Assembly: GCA_019745975.1 (NCBI GenBank)
Contig: JAIESQ010000031.1
Coordinates: 1-64,000 of the forward strand
Length of the DNA: 64,000 nt
Source: Pirellulales bacterium
Lineage (GTDB): Bacteria; Planctomycetota; Planctomycetia; Pirellulales; JAEUIK01
Direction of reading: 5' to 3'
Part shown: positions 8,373 to 26,504 of the stretch, one piece after another
How the letters are laid out: every line of letters starts with the position of its first letter
Numbering within the stretch: position 1 is the stretch's first letter
The notes under the pieces: model-generated
Databases searched by the model: none
Seen by the model: the letters and a program-made list of their open reading frames with translations, nothing else
Told to the model about the DNA's origin: nothing
Position numbers and translations under genes: made by a program

Positions 8373-8533
8373 GAGGTCGGCGCAGGTGGACAATCGATTT
8401 CGAGCAGAATTATAACAGCGCCGCACGACTTGCCGCGGAGATCGTGGAACGGTGTTAGTCAACTTGCTATGGTGAACAGCCGATCGCGCCGTGAGGTGCA
8501 CCAAGTTCGGCCAGCCGCACATTGTTATTTGTC

Positions 8534-8905
8534 ATGCGAGACTCAAGTTCGCGCCGCACTCCGAGCTGGTTTCTGCCGGCAAGCCAGGCCTTTCATCAAG
8601 CCGGCTTTTCGCCGCCGGTCGATATCTATCGCCTGGCGCGGGGCTGGCTGTTGAAGTTCGACCTGGCTGGCGTGCGGCCGCAAGATGTTGAAGTCGTCAT
8701 CCGGGGCTGCCACGTGACGGTCCGCGGCGTGCGTCGCGACTGGATGATCGAGGAGGGCGTCGCCAGCTATTCGATGGAAATCGCCTACAACAGTTTCGCC
8801 CGCACGATCGACTTGCCGTGCGATGTGGACGTGGCAGAGGTGCAGACCGAGTTTCGCGACGGGATGCTGCTTGTGCGGCTCGAGCTGCAAAGGAGCGACG
8901 CATGA
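8534..8905 (+). CDS. Small heat shock protein, Hsp20/alpha-crystallin family
   Basis: This encodes 123 residues. The alpha-crystallin fold is visible from PVDIYRLARGWLLKFDLAGV through VTVRGVRRDW to TEFRDGMLLVRLEL. It acts as an ATP-independent holdase for unfolding proteins in the cytoplasm. The C-terminal I-x-I oligomerisation motif of many family members is absent; the protein stops soon after the last strand. The ATG at 8534 is preferred over a TTG at 8522. The stop overlaps the lon start as ATGA at 8902-8905, with AAGGAG just before it inside this gene, so hsp20 and lon are translationally coupled. Confidence 0.9.
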   Translation: MRDSSSRRTPSWFLPASQAFHQAGFSPPVDIYRLARGWLLKFDLAGVRPQDVEVVIRGCHVTVRGVRRDWMIEEGVASYSMEIAYNSFARTIDLPCDVDVAEVQTEFRDGMLLVRLELQRSDA

Positions 8906-11256
8906 CCGACGGCCAGCGGAACATCTCGCTCCCGGTGCTGCCGCTCAAGAACACGGTGCTGTTTCCGCACCTGGTGCTGCCGTTGGTTGTGGGCCGCCCC
9001 AGTTCGCTGGCCGCCGTCGAAGCCGCGCTCAAGAGCGAAGACAAGACGCTCGTGCTCGTGGCCCAGAAAGACCCCAGCGTCGACGACCCCCAGCCCGACG
9101 GGCTGTACACGGTCGGCACGCAGGCGGTGATCAAGAAGATGGACCGCGCTGAGGGGCAGGTGCAACTCGTGGTGCAAGGCGCCCAGCGGCTCGAGCTCGT
9201 CTCCGTCGCGCTTGAAGACGGGTTGCTGCGGGCCCAGGTGCGGCCCATCCCCGATCCTCAGGACACCGGCCCCGAGGTCGAAGCGCTTCAACGGCTGGTG
9301 CTCGAGCAGGCAACCAAGATTCACGCCCTGGTGCAGCCGCAGACGCCGATCTCCGTCGAGCAGTTTCTGAGCCAGTTCAGCGATCCGCTGCACCAGGTCT
9401 ATCTGCTGGGCTCGATGCTCTCGCTGGATCTCGAGAAAGAGCAGGCCCTGCTGGAAGCCGCGACGCGGGTGACGGCATTGCGCTTGATGCACGAGTACTT
9501 GACTCACGAAGTGCAGGTGCTGGAGCTGCGCCAGGAGATCGCCAACGAAGCCCGCACTGAGATGAGCCGCGAACAGCGCGAGTACCTGCTGCGGCAGCAA
9601 ATGCAGGCGATCCAACAAGAGCTGGGCGAGCAGAGCCCCGAGCAGGCCGAAGCCGCCGAGCTGCGCCGCCGCTTTGAAGAGGCTGATTTACCTGAGAGCG
9701 TTCGCAAGGAGGCGGCACGGGATTTGACACGCTTGGAGCGGATGCCGCCGGCGGCGCCAGACTACCAGCTCACCCGCACGTATCTGGAACTAGTGCTCGA
9801 GCTCCCCTGGTCGAAGTCGACCGAAGATATTTTGGACCTGGCGCGGGCGCGGCAGGTGCTCGACGAAGACCACTACGGCCTGAAGGAAATCAAGGAGCGC
9901 ATTCTCGAACACCTGGCCGTGCTCAAGCTCAACCCCAAGGCAAAGGCGCCGATCCTCTGCTTCGTCGGTCCGCCGGGCGTTGGCAAGACATCACTGGGCA
10001 AGTCGATTGGCCGGGCGCTAGGGCGCACTTTTGAGCGCATCAGTTTGGGCGGCTTGCACGACGAATCGGAACTGCGCGGGCATCGCCGCACGTACATCGG
10101 CGCGATGCCGGGGCGGATCATCCAGGCGATTCGCCGGGCCGGCGTCAACAATCCGCTGTTGATGCTCGACGAGGTGGACAAGCTCGGTCAGGGCTTTCAC
10201 GGCGATCCGGCGGCCGCACTGCTGGAAGTCCTCGACCCGGCCCAGAACTTCGAGTTCCGCGACAACTACTTGAATATGGCGTTCGACCTGTCGCGGGTGT
10301 TTTTCGTCACGACGGCCAACACGCTCGACACGATTCCCCGCCCGCTCTTGGATCGCATGGAGCTGCTGCGCTTGGCGGGCTACACGGGCGAGGAAAAGTT
10401 CGAGATCGCCCGGCGTTATCTCATCCCGCGGCAGTTGAGCGAAGCGGGTCTGACCGCCGAGCAACTCAACATCACCGACGTCGCGGTCGAGCAGGTGATT
10501 GCCCGCTACACGCGTGAGGCGGGCGTGCGGCAGCTCGAACGGGCTTTGGGCCGGCTGACGCGCAAGGTCGCCGTGCGCTTCGCCGAAGGCCAGTCCGCGG
10601 CCGTGACCGTCGAGCCGGATGATCTCAAGGAATTGTTGGGGCCGGAGAAGTTCTTTCCCGAAGCGGCGCGGGCGAAGCTGCCGCCGGGCGTGTCGACGGG
10701 ACTGGCCTGGACCGAAACCGGCGGCGAAGTTCTTTACGTCGAAGCGCTGCTCTTGCCCGACGGCAAGGGGCTCACGCTCACCGGGCAGTTGGGGGAGGTG
10801 ATGCGCGAATCGGCGCAGGCAGCACACAGCTACGTCTGGTCGCGCGCCGGCGAACTGGACGTGGCCGAGAGCAAGTTCAAGGATTTTGGCTTGCACGTGC
10901 ACGTGCCGGCGGGCGCGGTGCCGAAGGATGGCCCCTCGGCGGGCGTGGCGATGGTCACGGCGCTCGTCTCGCTCTATACCGGCTTGCCCGTGCGGCGCGA
11001 CACGGCGATGACCGGCGAGATCACTCTCTCGGGCCTGGTGCTTCCGGTCGGCGGCATCAAGGAGAAAGTGCTGGGCGCGCGGCGTGCGGGCGTCTCGCGG
11101 ATCATCCTGCCGAAGCAGAACGAGCAGGATCTGGCCGAAGTGCCGGCCGAGGCGCGCGGCGAGCTGGAGTTCGTATTTGCCCAGCGCGTGGACGACGCCT
11201 GGGCGGCGGCGATCCCGCAACTGGCCGAGCGGCTGGCGGAAGCCGAAGCGGCGTGA
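8902..11256 (+). CDS. lon: ATP-dependent protease Lon
   Basis: This encodes 784 residues, the normal size for LonA, which degrades misfolded and regulatory proteins as a cytoplasmic hexamer. The N-terminal substrate domain starts at [19 protein letters not shown]. The AAA+ module has Walker [10 protein letters not shown] (about residues 356-364), Walker [10 protein letters not shown] and the sensor FVTTAN. The protease domain carries [10 protein letters not shown] with the catalytic serine at residue 679 and [10 protein letters not shown] with the lysine at 722, the same numbers as in E. coli Lon. The start is the ATG overlapping the hsp20 stop. No damage is seen. Confidence 0.97.
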
Positions 11257-11338: not shown

Positions 11339-14300
11339 ATGTCGGAGAAGCCTCGATTTCGCCAAGGCGACAGCGTCATTCTGCGTTCGTCCCTCGATGA
11401 GGGGACAGTGTTGAGCGATCCCGTCCTTGACGGCGAGGAGTATTGGTATCGCGTGCGCTTTACCAAGCGCGTTGTCAACGTAGTCGAAGATGACCTCGAT
11501 GCGTTTTCAGAACTCCATGATAGCATCGAGAGCTTAGTTACGACCGGACAGTGGGGTCGTATCCAGGCTTTTCGAACGGCACTTGCCGTTGAGAGAATTG
11601 CGAACGAGAACCGCAGTACCGTCTATTCCTTTCGTTCCCAGCGCGTACTGTTTGAGCCTCATCAATACAAGCCACTACTCAAACTTCTCGATTCACTGGA
11701 TCGACGTCTACTGATTGCTGACGAAGTTGGACTCGGAAAAACAATCGAGGCGGGATTGATCCTGGCTGAAATCGAAGCACGGCGACCGGTTGAGCGAGTG
11801 CTCGTTGCGTGTCCGTCGCGGCTGCGCGACAAATGGCGTGAGGAGATGAACCGCAAATTCGACCAGCCATTCGACGTGCTCGACAGGCGCGGTTTCGAGC
11901 AATATGTCGTCGCTCTACGGCAGTCGCAACGCCGGAGACAATTGCGCGCCATCATGTCGATGCAGTCGCTGCGCAGCCAACAAACAAGGGCCTTACTTAC
12001 CGGTGAGCTCGGACAACTCGACTTGGTCGTGGTTGATGAGGCCCACCACGCGCGCAATCCTGCGACGCAGACGTCCGCTTTATTGCGAGACCTATGCGAA
12101 ATCAGCGAGTGCGTCATCCTGTTGACTGCGACTCCGCTCCATCTAGGTAGCGAAGATCTTTTCACTCTACTCAGCTCGCTGCGACCGACCGAATTTCGCG
12201 ATGCGGCGGTGTTTGATCAGGACCTGCGGCACCATGCGCCCGTGTTTGAGGCAGCGAGACTATTGCGCACGCAAGATCGGAAGAACCTAGTCCTTGCTAA
12301 GGAGTATCTGGAACGAGTCTTCATCAATGGCGTCCTCGAACCAGCACGTAACCCTCTGGCGGCGCAGGTGATTGAGGACATGCAACACGATCCTCCATCG
12401 GATCGCCGCGAGTGGATCGAGTTGGAGCGGCGCGTTCAGGACTTGCATCCCTTGTCGTCGATCGTCACCCGCACCCGTAAGCGAGATGTCCAAGAACATG
12501 CGCCGACGCGGCGGCCTTATACCTTTCGCTGCCGCTGGACGAAGGCGGAGGACCACACGTATCAACGACTTGTCGCTGGATCGTCGCAGCTAGGTTGGAT
12601 TCGAGAGAAACTGACCTTGGGACAAATTCAGCGCGCACGGCAGGCCGCTAGTTGTCTCCCGGCAACGATGGAAGCCGGAAGCATCGCGGGAACAAGCGAC
12701 GACGAGTGTGTCGAATCGACGGATATTCTCCCAAGCGAGGTCGCTGCCGACGTTGGCGCAGATGAGCAGTTACAGTCCACAATGAGAGACTCTGGCACTT
12801 TACCCGATTCGAAATTTGACCAGCTTTACGAGATCTTATTGCAAATCTGGAAGGAGGAACCATCTGCGAAGATCTTGGTATTTACCTTCTTCGTTGGTAC
12901 GGCGAAGTACCTTGAGCGGCGACTCTCCGCTGAGGGAGTGCAGTGCTTACGCATCGCAGGCGATGTGCCTTCGAATCCGCTTGACCCGGGTCGCGACGAA
13001 CGTGGTCATCGAATTCAACAATTTCGCGATGACAAGCGGATGCGCGTGCTGGTGTCGACCGAGGTCGGCAGCGAGGGCCTCGACTTCCAATTCTGTCACC
13101 ACCTCGTCAATTACGACCTGCCCTGGAATCCAATGGTCGTCGAACAGCGCATTGGAAGAATCGATCGCTTCGGCCAGCAGTCGCCAATCGTTAACATCCA
13201 TAATCTTGTCGTCGAGGGGACAATCGAGGACCGCATCCTGCACAGGCTCTATGAGCGAATTAACATCTTTAAGCACAGTATCGGCGATTTGGAAGCAATC
13301 TTGGGGGAGACGATGAATGAGTTGCGGAGCGACTACATCAGCGGACGTCTCACCCCCGAGGAGGCAGAGCAGCGTGTGGAGCATGCAGCGCGTGCGGTCC
13401 AGCAAAGGCAGTTACACCTTGAGCGACTGGAAAAAAGCACTGCAGAACTCTTCGGCCACGAAGAGTACATTCGCGACGAAATGGCTCGCATTGGCCGACT
13501 TGGTCGATTCGTAAGCGAAGAGGCCATGTTGGCGGTCATCAAGACGTATCTCGAAGCCCATCATCCCCAGGTGCGCGTATGGCAAGACGCCGAAGGGGTC
13601 TACGCCTGTCAGCTCACCGAGTCGCTGCGCCAGTCAATGCAAGATGCGGTGCGAGGCGGACCTGCCTGGCTTTTCCGCAAGCAAGGCGACAGCATGCGGT
13701 TCACGATGCGAGGTGATATTGCCTTTGATCTGCCAGAGATCGAGCTTGTCAATGTGTCGCACCCGCTAATTCGCGCGGCCGTGGATGCCTTGAAGAAACA
13801 GTTGGGAGGTGCCACTGCGAGAGTCGGTCAGGCGACTCTTGAGTTATCGAGCAACTCGGACCTGGAAATCCCAGTCGGAGTAGTGTTTCTCGTAGTTTAT
13901 GTGCTAGTTATCGACGGACTTAGGCCGCGCCGCCTATTTGAAACCATTGCTTGGTCGGACGCACGCAACGAACAGTTGGATCAAGAGACCGCAGAGCGCC
14001 TGCTTCACCTCGTGCTCGATAGGGGAGCGAACTGGAATTCCTCCCTGGCGGCTCCCGCGATGCCGGTCGACATCTGGGAACTGGTGGCGTCAGAAATGAG
14101 GCGCCGCAATCGTCGTCTTGACGAGCGCGAGAATCGCGAGAACGAGGCGTCTTACCTCAGGCGCAAATCGGTCCTGCAAGCAGAGTACGAGTATAACCGG
14201 CGTTCTAAGGAGCAGCGTCTGCAGACAGCGATTGCGCGAGGCAGCGAAAAAGTCGTTCCGGCGCTACGAGGCCAATTGCAGAAAGCCAAGTCGGAATACC

Positions 14301-14401
14301 GGGCAAAGCTGGCTGAACTTGATAACATGAGAATGGTGTCGGTGACGCATCCTGATCCGTTGGCCGCATGTGTCGTCGAGGTATTGCGAAAGCAGGCTTA
14401 G
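11339..14401 (+). CDS. SNF2/RapA-like superfamily 2 ATPase (helicase-related)
   Basis: This encodes 1020 residues. An N-terminal beta-rich region (residues 5-55, [18 protein letters not shown]) resembles the RapA/HepA Tudor-like domain. The SF2 core follows: motif [14 protein letters not shown] (about 127-139), DEAH box [10 protein letters not shown] (about 231-240), motif [13 protein letters not shown], then helicase C with [11 protein letters not shown] and [11 protein letters not shown]. The last ~400 residues lack an assigned domain and end in a charged coiled-coil stretch ([16 protein letters not shown] onwards). Such enzymes remodel protein-nucleic acid complexes or translocate on dsDNA. 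It is followed after 9 bases by an Hsp70-like gene on the same strand. Codon use looks less GC-rich than in lon, consistent with transfer. Confidence 0.88.
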
Positions 14402-14410
14402 GGGCAGCTC

Positions 14411-15727
14411 ATGGACGTGAAAAGCAACGGCTTCGTTAGCAGATCAATTGAATCCGACCCACTCGGCGTGGCCTGCCCATCTTCGAGAAGTGGCCGGCCG
14501 GCGCCGCGCAGAAAAGCTAACCGCCCGACGGTGATCGTCGGATGCGACTTTGGCACCTATGCAACGAAGATCATGCTGCGACGGCGAGGTGACACGGAAG
14601 CACATTGCCTAGCGCCTGGAAAGCCCATGGACGGGTACGCACGATTCGCATTCCCATCATTGGTTCGGCTGCATGACGATCGACTCTATTTCGGTAGTCG
14701 GGCAGCTACGATGCGCGAGGGCCAACTATACCGGTCATTGAAGGTACGACTGCTTGGGCCAAAGGCCGAGCAGGAACTCGAGCAATTTCCTGAGGGGCCA
14801 CCTCCCGATCTCTTGGTTGCTGCGTACCTCGCTTGGTTGCTCGAGCAGGTATGGCGGGAGATCGATCGGCGCTTTCGCGGTCCCACGGTTTTTCTCAATC
14901 TCGCCGCTCCGATGGACCATATCGAGAACAAGGCGCTCAAGGAGCGCTATCTACAGATCATTCATGCTGCCTGGAGTGTGACCTTCTCACCGACCACGAT
15001 GGCAAACGGGGTCAGTTTGTCCAACGTTGAACCTCTGCTTAAGAACCTGCTCTTGTCTCCGGTGCCACCAACGCAGGAACGCAAATTCGATGTCTTGCCG
15101 GAGACAATTGCACCGGTGGTATCGTTGTCCCTCGACCCTCGCACCACCACCGGCAACTACCTGGTTATGGACATGGGCGCAGGCACGACCGAAGCTTCGC
15201 TTTGCATGATTGGTGGGCACGGAGCGGAGCAGCGGATTACCTGCTACTTCGACCAAACGGACTTGATTGGTGCCGATCTTTTCAGCGACGCGGATCGACT
15301 TGCCGGTGAAGTGCGTCGCGAGCGAACCGAGATCCTGTGCCGACGATTGGCCAAACTCGCGAAGCATGTGTGGTACGAGGGATTCAAGAAGGACAAGTCA
15401 TCTCGAGCAACCCATGACCGTTGGCGCCGCCTAAAAGTGCTGCTTGCAGGAGGTGGAACCTTAAGAAGGGAAGTCAGCGAGACTATTCGTGAAACCGATC
15501 TCCTGCGCCACTGGTTTCCCGACGATCCCAAGCCTCAGGTGGCACGGCACTGCCCGATAGGAATCGGCGCGATGTCACAGGTTCAAGATGACCTTGGCAT
15601 GCTCGCTACCGCCCACGGCTTGACGGTCGAGCGAATGCAATGGCCGATTTGGTTTCCGCCGAATGAGGTCGAGGTGCAGCCGCAGCCTGAAGTCGTCCAG
15701 AAGAACGAAGCATATTGGTACGTTTAG
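14411..15727 (+). CDS. Hsp70/actin-fold ATPase without substrate-binding domain
   Basis: This encodes 438 residues. The nucleotide-binding motifs of the Hsp70/actin superfamily are present: phosphate 1 GCDFGTYATKI (about residues 44-54), phosphate 2 MDMGAGTTEASL (about 252-263) and adenosine motif VLLAGGGTLRR (about 343-353). An unstructured basic N-terminal tail of ~40 residues precedes the fold. There is no C-terminal beta-sandwich substrate domain as in DnaK; the protein ends with a polar tail (EVEVQPQPEVVQKNEAYWYV). A ParM-like or chaperone-like ATPase role is possible. The start is the ATG 9 bases after the SNF2 gene stop, so the two are almost certainly co-transcribed. The biological role of the pair is not known to me. 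Confidence 0.85.
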   Translation: MDVKSNGFVSRSIESDPLGVACPSSRSGRPAPRRKANRPTVIVGCDFGTYATKIMLRRRGDTEAHCLAPGKPMDGYARFAFPSLVRLHDDRLYFGSRAATMREGQLYRSLKVRLLGPKAEQELEQFPEGPPPDLLVAAYLAWLLEQVWREIDRRFRGPTVFLNLAAPMDHIENKALKERYLQIIHAAWSVTFSPTTMANGVSLSNVEPLLKNLLLSPVPPTQERKFDVLPETIAPVVSLSLDPRTTTGNYLVMDMGAGTTEASLCMIGGHGAEQRITCYFDQTDLIGADLFSDADRLAGEVRRERTEILCRRLAKLAKHVWYEGFKKDKSSRATHDRWRRLKVLLAGGGTLRREVSETIRETDLLRHWFPDDPKPQVARHCPIGIGAMSQVQDDLGMLATAHGLTVERMQWPIWFPPNEVEVQPQPEVVQKNEAYWYV

Positions 15728-15943
15728 TCGCCGGAATGGTTGACCTCGAAAGCCCGACTCTGCGCAGGCTTAGCGGCGTGCGATGCGCTAGCGCAAATTG
15801 CACGATGACACGAAGCCCAGGAGTCGCAACCGTCGCAACCCCCGGGGCTTTGGTGACACGGTCCGAGCCACCCTGCGAAATTGCGGCCGCGTTCCCCGCT
15901 CGAATCTCGCCGCTGCGCGGCTCTCGATTCCGCGACATGTTTC

Positions 15944-15991
15944 CCGTGGGCTCGCGCCCACGGCTAAGCGCTTGTCGCCGCTACGCGGCTG
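15944..15991 (+). repeat. CCGTGGG-type palindromic repeat, copy c
   Basis: CCGTGGGC/GCCCACGG is followed by CTAAG and GCCGC/GCGGC. It is the main recognisable content of the gene-free stretch 15728-16083; nothing else in that stretch looks coding. Confidence 0.75.
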
Positions 15992-16083
15992 GATTCTTGA
16001 CCGAGTTGGCACGTCGTCCTCGAACGAGCCACCCCGAACCCTTGCTGCGCTGCGGGCTAGTGTGACGAGCGTACGTCTCGCAT

Positions 16084-25311: not shown

Positions 25312-26277
25312 TCAACGCAACACTTGGTCCAAATAAGATGCGATTGCCCTGGCTCGGAATATGGGAATGACCAACCCTGCCGCGGCTAATACGGCGAGCA
25401 GCAGCGTTGGCGGCTCTGGAATTGTGTAGATAAACCCGGTTGACCTAAGGGTTATACCAGCACCAATTGTAGTGTACGTACCGACAATCCTATTATTCGA
25501 AACGCCGTGGAAGGTAAAACCAAGCGAGTTGACACCCAAAGTCGGATGACTGAATGATTCGCCGTCGTAGATGTACGGACGCGACACTAAGGAACTAAAC
25601 CCTTGAAATGTATATGTCCCTACAATAATGTCCCCGGAAATACCTTTCGCATAGTTTCCTTTGGTCCCGGCGGGATCGTCGATCGTGATCCACGAATTGC
25701 CGTCGTATAAAAACCCGTGCTCAAGACCGGAAGCGTCTAGGTATTGGCCGACTATTTTATTTCCGGAAATGTCCGCCAAGACGGTACCGTTGACACCCAA
25801 GGGGTGATCGAGCGTTGTCCATGTCGACCCGTTGTAGACAAAGCCGTGATTGATTCCGGTAGGCGATGTGCGATATGAGCCGATGATGTTATCGCCATCA
25901 ATTCCTGATGCCGACGTGGTACTTGCTAGCGGATAATGAAGGGTTGTGTAGGATGAGCCATCGTATAGGAAACTCTGATAGTTGCCTTTGAGGTCGAAAT
26001 AATAACCAACAATTCGACTGCCGGACACAGAATATGCCGCGCTGGAAGTGGACGTTCCGGGCGGTTCTAGCTGCGTGTACGTACTACCGTCATATAGTAG
26101 CCCATAGCTCTTACTCTGACCAACGATACTATCGCCGTCGATGTCATACGGAACGAACGAACTTGATCCTGGCGGTGGTTGCAATATTTGCAGCGTAGCG
26201 GCCTGGGCTTCGCCATAGAGGAAAGTCACGACTAGCGCAACGCATATTCGCCCAATTTTGCCACAAATTGAACTCAT
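25312..26277 (-). CDS. PEP-CTERM-sorted extracellular repeat protein
   Basis: This encodes 321 residues. A signal peptide (ICVALVVTFLYGEAQA) is followed by six to seven repeats of about 40 residues with the pattern G-x-I-V-G-x-Y, then G-x-x-H-G-F-L-Y-D-G-x-S-W-T-T-L-D-x-P. These resemble HAF-type beta repeats. The C-terminus is a PEP-CTERM sorting signal: IPEPPTLLLAVLAAAGLVIP plus a basic tail FRAR. The exosortase that would process it is not in the window. The ATG at 26277 follows AGGA. The gene is noticeably less GC-rich than its neighbours and sits between REP-like sequences, which suggests acquired DNA. Confidence 0.85.
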   Translation of the reverse strand: MSSICGKIGRICVALVVTFLYGEAQAATLQILQPPPGSSSFVPYDIDGDSIVGQSKSYGLLYDGSTYTQLEPPGTSTSSAAYSVSGSRIVGYYFDLKGNYQSFLYDGSSYTTLHYPLASTTSASGIDGDNIIGSYRTSPTGINHGFVYNGSTWTTLDHPLGVNGTVLADISGNKIVGQYLDASGLEHGFLYDGNSWITIDDPAGTKGNYAKGISGDIIVGTYTFQGFSSLVSRPYIYDGESFSHPTLGVNSLGFTFHGVSNNRIVGTYTTIGAGITLRSTGFIYTIPEPPTLLLAVLAAAGLVIPIFRARAIASYLDQVLR

Positions 26278-26426
26278 TAGCGTGTTCCTGTCGCGCGCCG
26301 CAAAGCTCGCCTTACTTGTTGCGATCAAGTTGAAGGTGATTCTATGCGGCCGTGGATCAGGACACAAGTCTCGATCCCGCTTTGAGCACGCCGCTGCGCG
26401 GCTTGATCGGTTGTTGTGTCGGGCTT

Positions 26427-26472
26427 CCGTGGGTTGGCACCCACGGCTAAGCACTGCCGCCGCGTTGCGGCG
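26427..26472 (+). repeat. CCGTGGG-type palindromic repeat, copy d
   Basis: CCGTGGGT/ACCCACGG is followed by CTAAG and CGCCGC/GCGGCG. It lies between the PEP-CTERM gene and the left REP-like sequence of the RAYT remnant. Confidence 0.75.
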
Positions 26473-26504
26473 AAGACATCGTGCGGACAAATCGGGCCGC
26501 GGGG

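Follow-up and report, generated by a model that had tools for sequence, protein, structure and literature searches.

RapA and other SNF2 enzymes are translocases that act on double-stranded DNA and displace the complexes bound to it, and Hsp70-fold domains are nucleotide-driven clamps. More generally, ATPases with Hsp70 and Hsp90 folds are familiar as machines of protein folding. SNF2 motors and ATPases of the actin/Hsp70 superfamily come together in the eukaryotic remodellers INO80, SWR1, and BAF, where the motor is accompanied by actin or actin-related protein (ARP) subunits. Among prokaryotic defence systems, Tiamat has been described as a single protein, without an SNF2 enzyme, and immunity that relies on SNF2 enzymes of the DrmD type is itself already known. 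We consider here two adjacent genes, called D and H, that lie in a stretch of 64,000 nucleotides (the window) from a Pirellulales bacterium of the phylum Planctomycetota (GenBank assembly GCA_019745975.1, contig JAIESQ010000031.1, positions 1 to 64,000). Together they appear to make up a module of two genes that moves horizontally and most likely serves in defence against phages or plasmids; the two proteins are predicted to form one complex (we give this reading a probability of about 0.6). What is new is that the DrmD-type SNF2 has a chaperone-fold partner, and an exchangeable one. The pair is made up as follows:

11339-14401, + strand: D, an SNF2-family ATPase of the RapA/DrmD type, 1020 residues (open reading frame, Pfam, PADLOC/NCBIfam, structural model)
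14402-14410, + strand: the 9-base spacer between D and H, with a G-rich possible ribosome-binding site ahead of the second ATG (sequence reading)
14411-15727, + strand: H, an Hsp70-fold ATPase without a substrate-binding domain, 438 residues (open reading frame, invariant catalytic set, structural model, alignment with DnaK)

The pair is conserved and co-inherited, and the catalytic motifs of both proteins are intact. Searching some 85,000 genomes with the alignment of H alone gave 55 loci, of which 54 have a DrmD-like gene (E values from 1e-155 to 0) as the immediate neighbour of H, transcribed in the same direction. Adjacency in so many independently retrieved loci excludes chance pairing. 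The order is D then H in 49 loci, with the two genes overlapping or within 60 nt of each other in 46 of these, and H then D, still adjacent, in five cyanobacteria. The hosts span at least 13 phyla, archaea included: Planctomycetota, Acidobacteriota, Omnitrophota, Bacteroidota, Pseudomonadota, Gemmatimonadota, Ignavibacteriota, Nitrospirota, Cyanobacteriota, Spirochaetota, Myxococcota, Thermodesulfobacteriota, candidate phyla, and one archaeon of the Methanosarcinaceae (host names are as titled by the submitters, and many are metagenome bins, for which mis-binned contigs are a caution). An earlier note on this DNA, made from the sequence alone, had proposed adjacency across distant phyla as a check on its suggestion that D and H work together, and the pair evidently passes.

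Trees of the two proteins, built from 58 pairs, mirror each other: their distances correlate with r = 0.94 (the best of 2,000 permutations reached 0.19), and 38 of 55 splits are common to both. The D tree does not follow the phyla of the hosts. On it, Pseudomonadota require 6 changes, Acidobacteriota 6 for 7 rows, and Planctomycetota 3 for 3, and the closest relatives of the window's SNF2 include those of Acidobacteriota and of another planctomycetote lineage. The mirrored trees and the mixed hosts therefore indicate that the pair has been transferred horizontally as one unit. Its presence is also sporadic, with 5 of about 318 genomes sampled from the phylum carrying it. The pairs of L045 (a Bacteroidota bin) and L055 (a Desulfocapsaceae bin) are nearly identical, at a tree distance of about 0.03, which may represent a very recent transfer between phyla or a mis-binned contig.

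A second search, made with the SNF2 gene over Planctomycetota samples, plasmids, and viral contigs, showed that the partner need not have an Hsp70 fold. Every SNF2 of the pair's clade with a readable flank adjoins a chaperone-fold ATPase, either Hsp70-like or of the Hsp90/sacsin fold. Such a neighbour stands beside all 8 SNF2 matches in the sampled Planctomycetota and relatives (5 Hsp70-like, 3 sacsin-type, the latter with the motif HF[IV][YF]EL[LI]QNA[ED]D in Planctomycetota) and beside all 10 on plasmids. Six of the plasmid partners are Hsp70-like (in Shinella, Leptolyngbya, Aminobacter, two Sphingobium, and Cyanobacterium) and four are sacsin-type (in Ensifer, two Rhizobium, and the archaeon Methanomethylovorans, where the protein is annotated as a 'molecular chaperone of HSP90 family'). 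The best six viral contigs have one Hsp70-like neighbour and five sacsin-type, the sacsin match at L123 being on the opposite strand only. One record of a faecal phage collection has a sacsin-type partner, and two others end short of the partner gene. No relative of H was found when the viral contigs were searched with H itself.

The sacsin-type partners match the PADLOC models of TmtA, the Tiamat protein, with E values as low as 2.1e-75, and the SNF2s that accompany them form a single clade (support 97) beside the Hsp70-partnered SNF2s. Pairs of both partner types are also adjoined by a PDC-S68-like superfamily 1 helicase (AAA_30 plus UvrD_C_2). The occurrence of both partner types, together with the shared PDC-S68-like neighbour, points to a single kind of module whose chaperone-fold subunit can be exchanged between the Hsp70 and the Hsp90/sacsin folds. 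No partner-specific docking site was found in the C-terminus of the SNF2s, where the conserved differences between the two groups are scattered and form no patch.

Some details of these loci may be recorded here. At L089, L091, L092, L095, L096, L098, L100, and L121-L125, a DrmD-like SNF2 is followed by a TmtA-like ATPase of about 1,030-1,110 residues, and several of the sacsin-partnered SNF2s carry an N-terminal extension of about 150 residues that by eye resembles Swt1-HEPN. The PDC-S68-like protein at L026, L049, L057, L066, L119, and L125 has about 1,080-1,280 residues, with RHxSxRVPWHD at its N-terminal end and the helicase at its C-terminal end.

D is the SF2 ATPase of 1020 residues that the earlier note described, with both parts of the motor recognizable in Pfam (SNF2-rel_dom, 7.9e-24, and Helicase_C, 2e-22). 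The motifs GLGKT, DE.H, ATP, and EQRIGR.DR.GQ are invariant among 36 SNF2 members, and these core motifs, along with similarity over the full length, place D in the RapA/DrmD branch. Its AlphaFold model (predicted local distance difference test, pLDDT, 79.8) is closest by Foldseek to E. coli RapA (1.7e-40), and RapA is also the best match among solved structures by sequence (5e-71). The Tudor-like region that the note saw at the N-terminus is compatible with the model, where residues 12-55 are predicted to form six short strands that could make up such a barrel. The note was mistaken, however, in calling the C-terminal 400 or so residues unassigned. They are covered by the alignments to DrmD models up to residue 993-998, and this part of D is therefore the ordinary C-terminal region of RapA/DrmD proteins.

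Such similarity could mean that the pair is a fragment or variant of DISARM, the SNF2 being DrmD and the Hsp70-like gene a passenger. DrmD is the best family match of D (PADLOC PDLC02623, 6.6e-139; next are BrxHI/II, HmaA, and DpdE), and at L033 (875-20270), in Acidobacteria, the pair sits inside a DISARM locus, embedded among DrmB-, DrmA-, reverse transcriptase-, DrmMI-, and DrmD-like genes. However, D scores 367 bits against the NCBIfam model DISARM_DrmD (NF038317), well short of the cut-off of 610 (the second NCBIfam match is RapA, at 236 bits), and a search of the whole genome for DUF1998/MZB (PF09369, the signature of DrmA/DrmB) found no match, whereas 8 of 14 control genomes have one. 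Furthermore, L030 and L033 hold a DrmD-type gene distinct from that of the pair, and the SNF2s of both partner groups stand apart from the DISARM- and DpdE-type SNF2s of the same loci, those of the pair forming their own clade (97 in the Shimodaira-Hasegawa-like approximate likelihood ratio test, SH-aLRT, a value limited by the very long branches of the others). Because the cut-off for DrmD is missed and the genome has no DUF1998/MZB protein, the pair is, judged by sequence, not DISARM. For the window genome this explanation is mostly refuted, and we consider it the least probable of the three that compete with a separate defence module.

The earlier note had also described H as a 438-residue Hsp70-like ATPase, 9 bases on, with nucleotide motifs present and a substrate domain absent, and this description holds. 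No change is seen among 49-54 relatives of H at D46, G48, K53, K111, P167, E231, D254, G256, T259, G347, and G348, even though identity among these proteins is often below 20%, and the invariant residues align with the phosphate-1, catalytic lysine, connect-1, phosphate-2, and adenosine motifs of DnaK (weakly so in the N-terminal part, where the invariant lysine pairs with that of the DnaK SIK motif in a low-scoring segment). This comparison of motifs is based on matches to DnaK, and a profile-profile run against the genome's own DnaK aligned the first motif only. The model of H, built with the alignment of its relatives, is of good quality (pLDDT 88.4; predicted template modelling score, pTM, 0.86) and is matched by Foldseek to the nucleotide-binding domains of DnaK, BiP, and Hsp110 (about 1e-12). 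The chain stops after this domain, in a short, low-confidence tail at about residue 415, and so there is no substrate-binding domain. Relatives of H vary chiefly in how far they are extended at the N-terminus; their nucleotide-binding domain begins at residue 101 in the median (range 8-631).

By its catalytic residues, its alignment with DnaK, and the Foldseek matches, H thus belongs to the Hsp70 nucleotide-binding fold but not to the Hsp70 chaperones. It has no match to Pfam HSP70 (PF00012), and no family of Pfam, NCBIfam, or PADLOC claims it above a usable score. Whether it might be a housekeeping protein, as the note itself had asked, was settled in the negative. It is not the cell's DnaK, for a separate, canonical DnaK is encoded in the same genome (872 bits) and the family profile of H is distant from it, and it is also distant from proteins of the MreB/FtsA type (16.6 bits against the NCBIfam MreB cut-off of 293; E = 0.21 for Pfam MreB). 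MreB matches at L015, L017, and L018 in the first search were discarded as cross-matches within the superfamily.

The surroundings of the pair in the window raise another explanation:

8522-11256, + strand: hsp20 and lon, two genes of the host that immediately precede D (kept as a pair in five other genomes of the same taxonomic order, without D-H there)
15728-16083, strand not assigned: intergenic segment downstream of H with a dispersed repeat, matched 44 times in the genome, which may mark the border of the acquired segment (repeat search)

Perhaps the pair serves transcription recycling or stress, a RapA-like enzyme freeing stalled RNA polymerase under the control of an Hsp70-like sensor, placed in a heat-shock block. 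The closest solved structures to D are indeed those of RapA, and the pair stands right behind hsp20-lon in the same direction, while the sequence between them showed neither a terminator nor a consensus sigma-70 promoter (in a scan for promoters and terminators at the pair, nothing rose above shuffled sequences). Yet the five relatives of the same taxonomic order have hsp20-lon with other genes behind lon in place of the pair, lon was noticed beside the pair at no other locus, and sporadic presence, carriage on plasmids, and transfer across phyla are unlike a housekeeping role. We therefore think a part in transcription or stress improbable. Insertion of the pair behind lon is consistent with the existence of hsp20-lon without it in five genomes, with the downstream repeat, and with low GC content at third codon positions (0.625 in D and 0.633 in H, against 0.70-0.83 in the immediate neighbours). 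Repeats that could be att sites, sought at both ends of the pair, came down to short, chance-like matches only. The mobility that the earlier note had read from codon use is supported by these features and by the cross-phylum mixing, the plasmids, and the recombinases.

Other features of the window are of possible interest. The dispersed repeat, at 15887-16067, has over 40 partial matches across the genome, one of which (contig 1049-1138) overlaps Acido-Lenti-1, so that the repeat is possibly related to that element; Acido-Lenti-1 RNA is matched twice with scores that exceed the Rfam gathering threshold, at 275-320 and 1088-1134. On the minus strand, a gene of 52% GC at 25312-26490 encodes a repetitive protein ('GxxIVGxY..G') ending in a segment like a PEP-CTERM anchor, and it may be another acquired or fast-evolving gene.

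Beyond the window, the company that the pair keeps is often of another kind. The families tallied over 151 neighbour proteins include DrmA, DrmD, and DrmMI of DISARM, HmaB and HmaC of Hma, DUF499, Druantia DruE3, Orf5, SspE, HEC-06, PDC-S68, GmrSD, BrxB, and Swt1-HEPN, as well as resolvases and integrases. Its companions on the conjugative plasmid pAA03 are Hachiman HamA, AbiEii, a restriction endonuclease, and a RecB-like nuclease, and in Mesorhizobium and Aminobacter HmaB/HmaC-like genes stand with it. Proximity to known defence genes, another check that the note had called for, is thus found in other genomes, with Hachiman, DISARM, Hma, and Druantia-like neighbours. This neighbourhood and the exchange of partner with a Tiamat-like ATPase support a role in defence, which we regard as rather probable on these genomic grounds.

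The target of such a role need not be phage. The pair could instead stabilize mobile elements or interfere with plasmids (for example, by excluding competing ones), as might be expected from its carriage on several plasmids, some of them conjugative, beside genes for partition and mobilisation, from its recombinase neighbours, and from the small number of viral contigs that have it. Chromosomes, however, commonly carry it too, as do islands that contain known anti-phage systems, and the other type of partner has its relative in the model of an anti-phage family (TmtA). A function limited to mobile elements thus seems no likelier than one in stress.

Several observations weigh against a defence module acting as one complex. 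The tally of defence islands has no matched control set, and many of the loci sit among metabolic genes. In the window itself, the neighbours (hsp20, lon, a VIT/vWA-like protein, lspA, and dksA) are not defence genes. At L022 (9926-11161), beside mutL, is the sole orphan H, 38% identical to that of the window, and no remnant of an SNF2 gene was found there. The complex of D and H is predicted from gene order and co-inheritance. Finally, the pair contains no recognizable nuclease or obvious toxic effector, and therefore either displacement itself would be protective or nucleases from outside would act.

If D and H do form a complex, then D may be a translocase that engages invading double-stranded DNA, and H a nucleotide-driven switch or clamp upon it, like the actin-fold subunits of eukaryotic SNF2 remodellers. 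The motor activity of D would be released only once invasion was sensed, whereupon D might strip or block the transcription or replication complexes of the phage or feed the DNA to nucleases encoded elsewhere. The proposal draws on the biochemistry of the named families, and that the switch and motor work in just this form is doubtful. Slightly less doubtful, still tentative, is the broader idea of a widespread class of immune modules in which an SNF2 motor is gated by an interchangeable Hsp70- or Hsp90/sacsin-fold subunit that senses invasion, a prokaryotic counterpart of remodellers with actin-fold subunits that would clear the machinery of foreign DNA with no nuclease. That one motor family pairs with either fold, and that bacteria and archaea exchange motor and partner as a sealed unit, suggests for switches of the chaperone fold a general part in the control of SNF2-based immunity.

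How does the pair compare with known systems? The earlier note knew of no named system with these two parts, and none matching D plus H was found in PADLOC-DB 2.0.0 (2023), NCBIfam, Pfam, or the openly searchable literature, though one may have been named later. The nearest candidate for H in PADLOC, PDC-M61 (PDC-M61B), matches 34 of 54 members of the H family weakly (5.8e-11 at best), with a profile that also matches generic Hsp70-type proteins and that in Planctomycetota gave weak matches of this generic type only; no PDC-M61 partner model was among the matches listed for the SNF2. An Hsp70-like ATPase does occur in a predicted defence system, CoCoNuT type III, as CnuD and in Hsp70-NxD-McrB fusions, but these homologues keep the substrate-binding domain, have degenerate Walker-A-like motifs, and have McrBC as partner (PMC11090510), whereas H lacks the domain, has its catalytic set intact, and is joined to an SNF2. 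A survey of conflict systems lists HSP70 with GTPases and tubulins and not with DrmD-type SNF2 (PMC7159879), and a survey of YprA helicases mentions neither Hsp70 nor DrmD (PMC12458937).

In Hma (HmaA SNF2, HmaB methylase, HmaC DUF499), the SNF2 is related to D (5.4e-48 in PADLOC), but Hma has no Hsp70-like gene and the pair usually has neither methylase nor DUF499. HmaB and HmaC are not adjacent in the window, where lon and (by eye) a VIT/vWA-like gene flank the pair, and they accompany it in some relatives only. DISARM (class 1) shares with the pair an SNF2 of the same family, alike over nearly the full length, C-terminal region included. D, however, falls under the equivalog cut-off of DrmD, belongs to a separate clade, has a chaperone-fold partner, and does not need DrmA, DrmB, DrmC, or a methylase. 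RapA (HepA), the closest solved structure, has the SNF2 core and the small N-terminal barrel as in D, but it is a stand-alone housekeeping enzyme while D is sporadic, mobile, and paired. With INO80, SWR1, and BAF the likeness is one of architecture, an analogy with no sequence evidence of shared descent and with no HSA domain identified; the pair would add an independent case of partnership between an SNF2 motor and an ATPase of the actin superfamily.

The pair is likewise not Tiamat, nor is it Hma or CoCoNuT. TmtA is not among the matches listed for D and H of the window, whose partner has the Hsp70 fold, whereas in the sister clade a TmtA-like ATPase of the Hsp90/sacsin fold fills the same slot. 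The D-H pair, compact and testable as it is, may thereby help to explain how Tiamat-like ATPases have to do with DNA.

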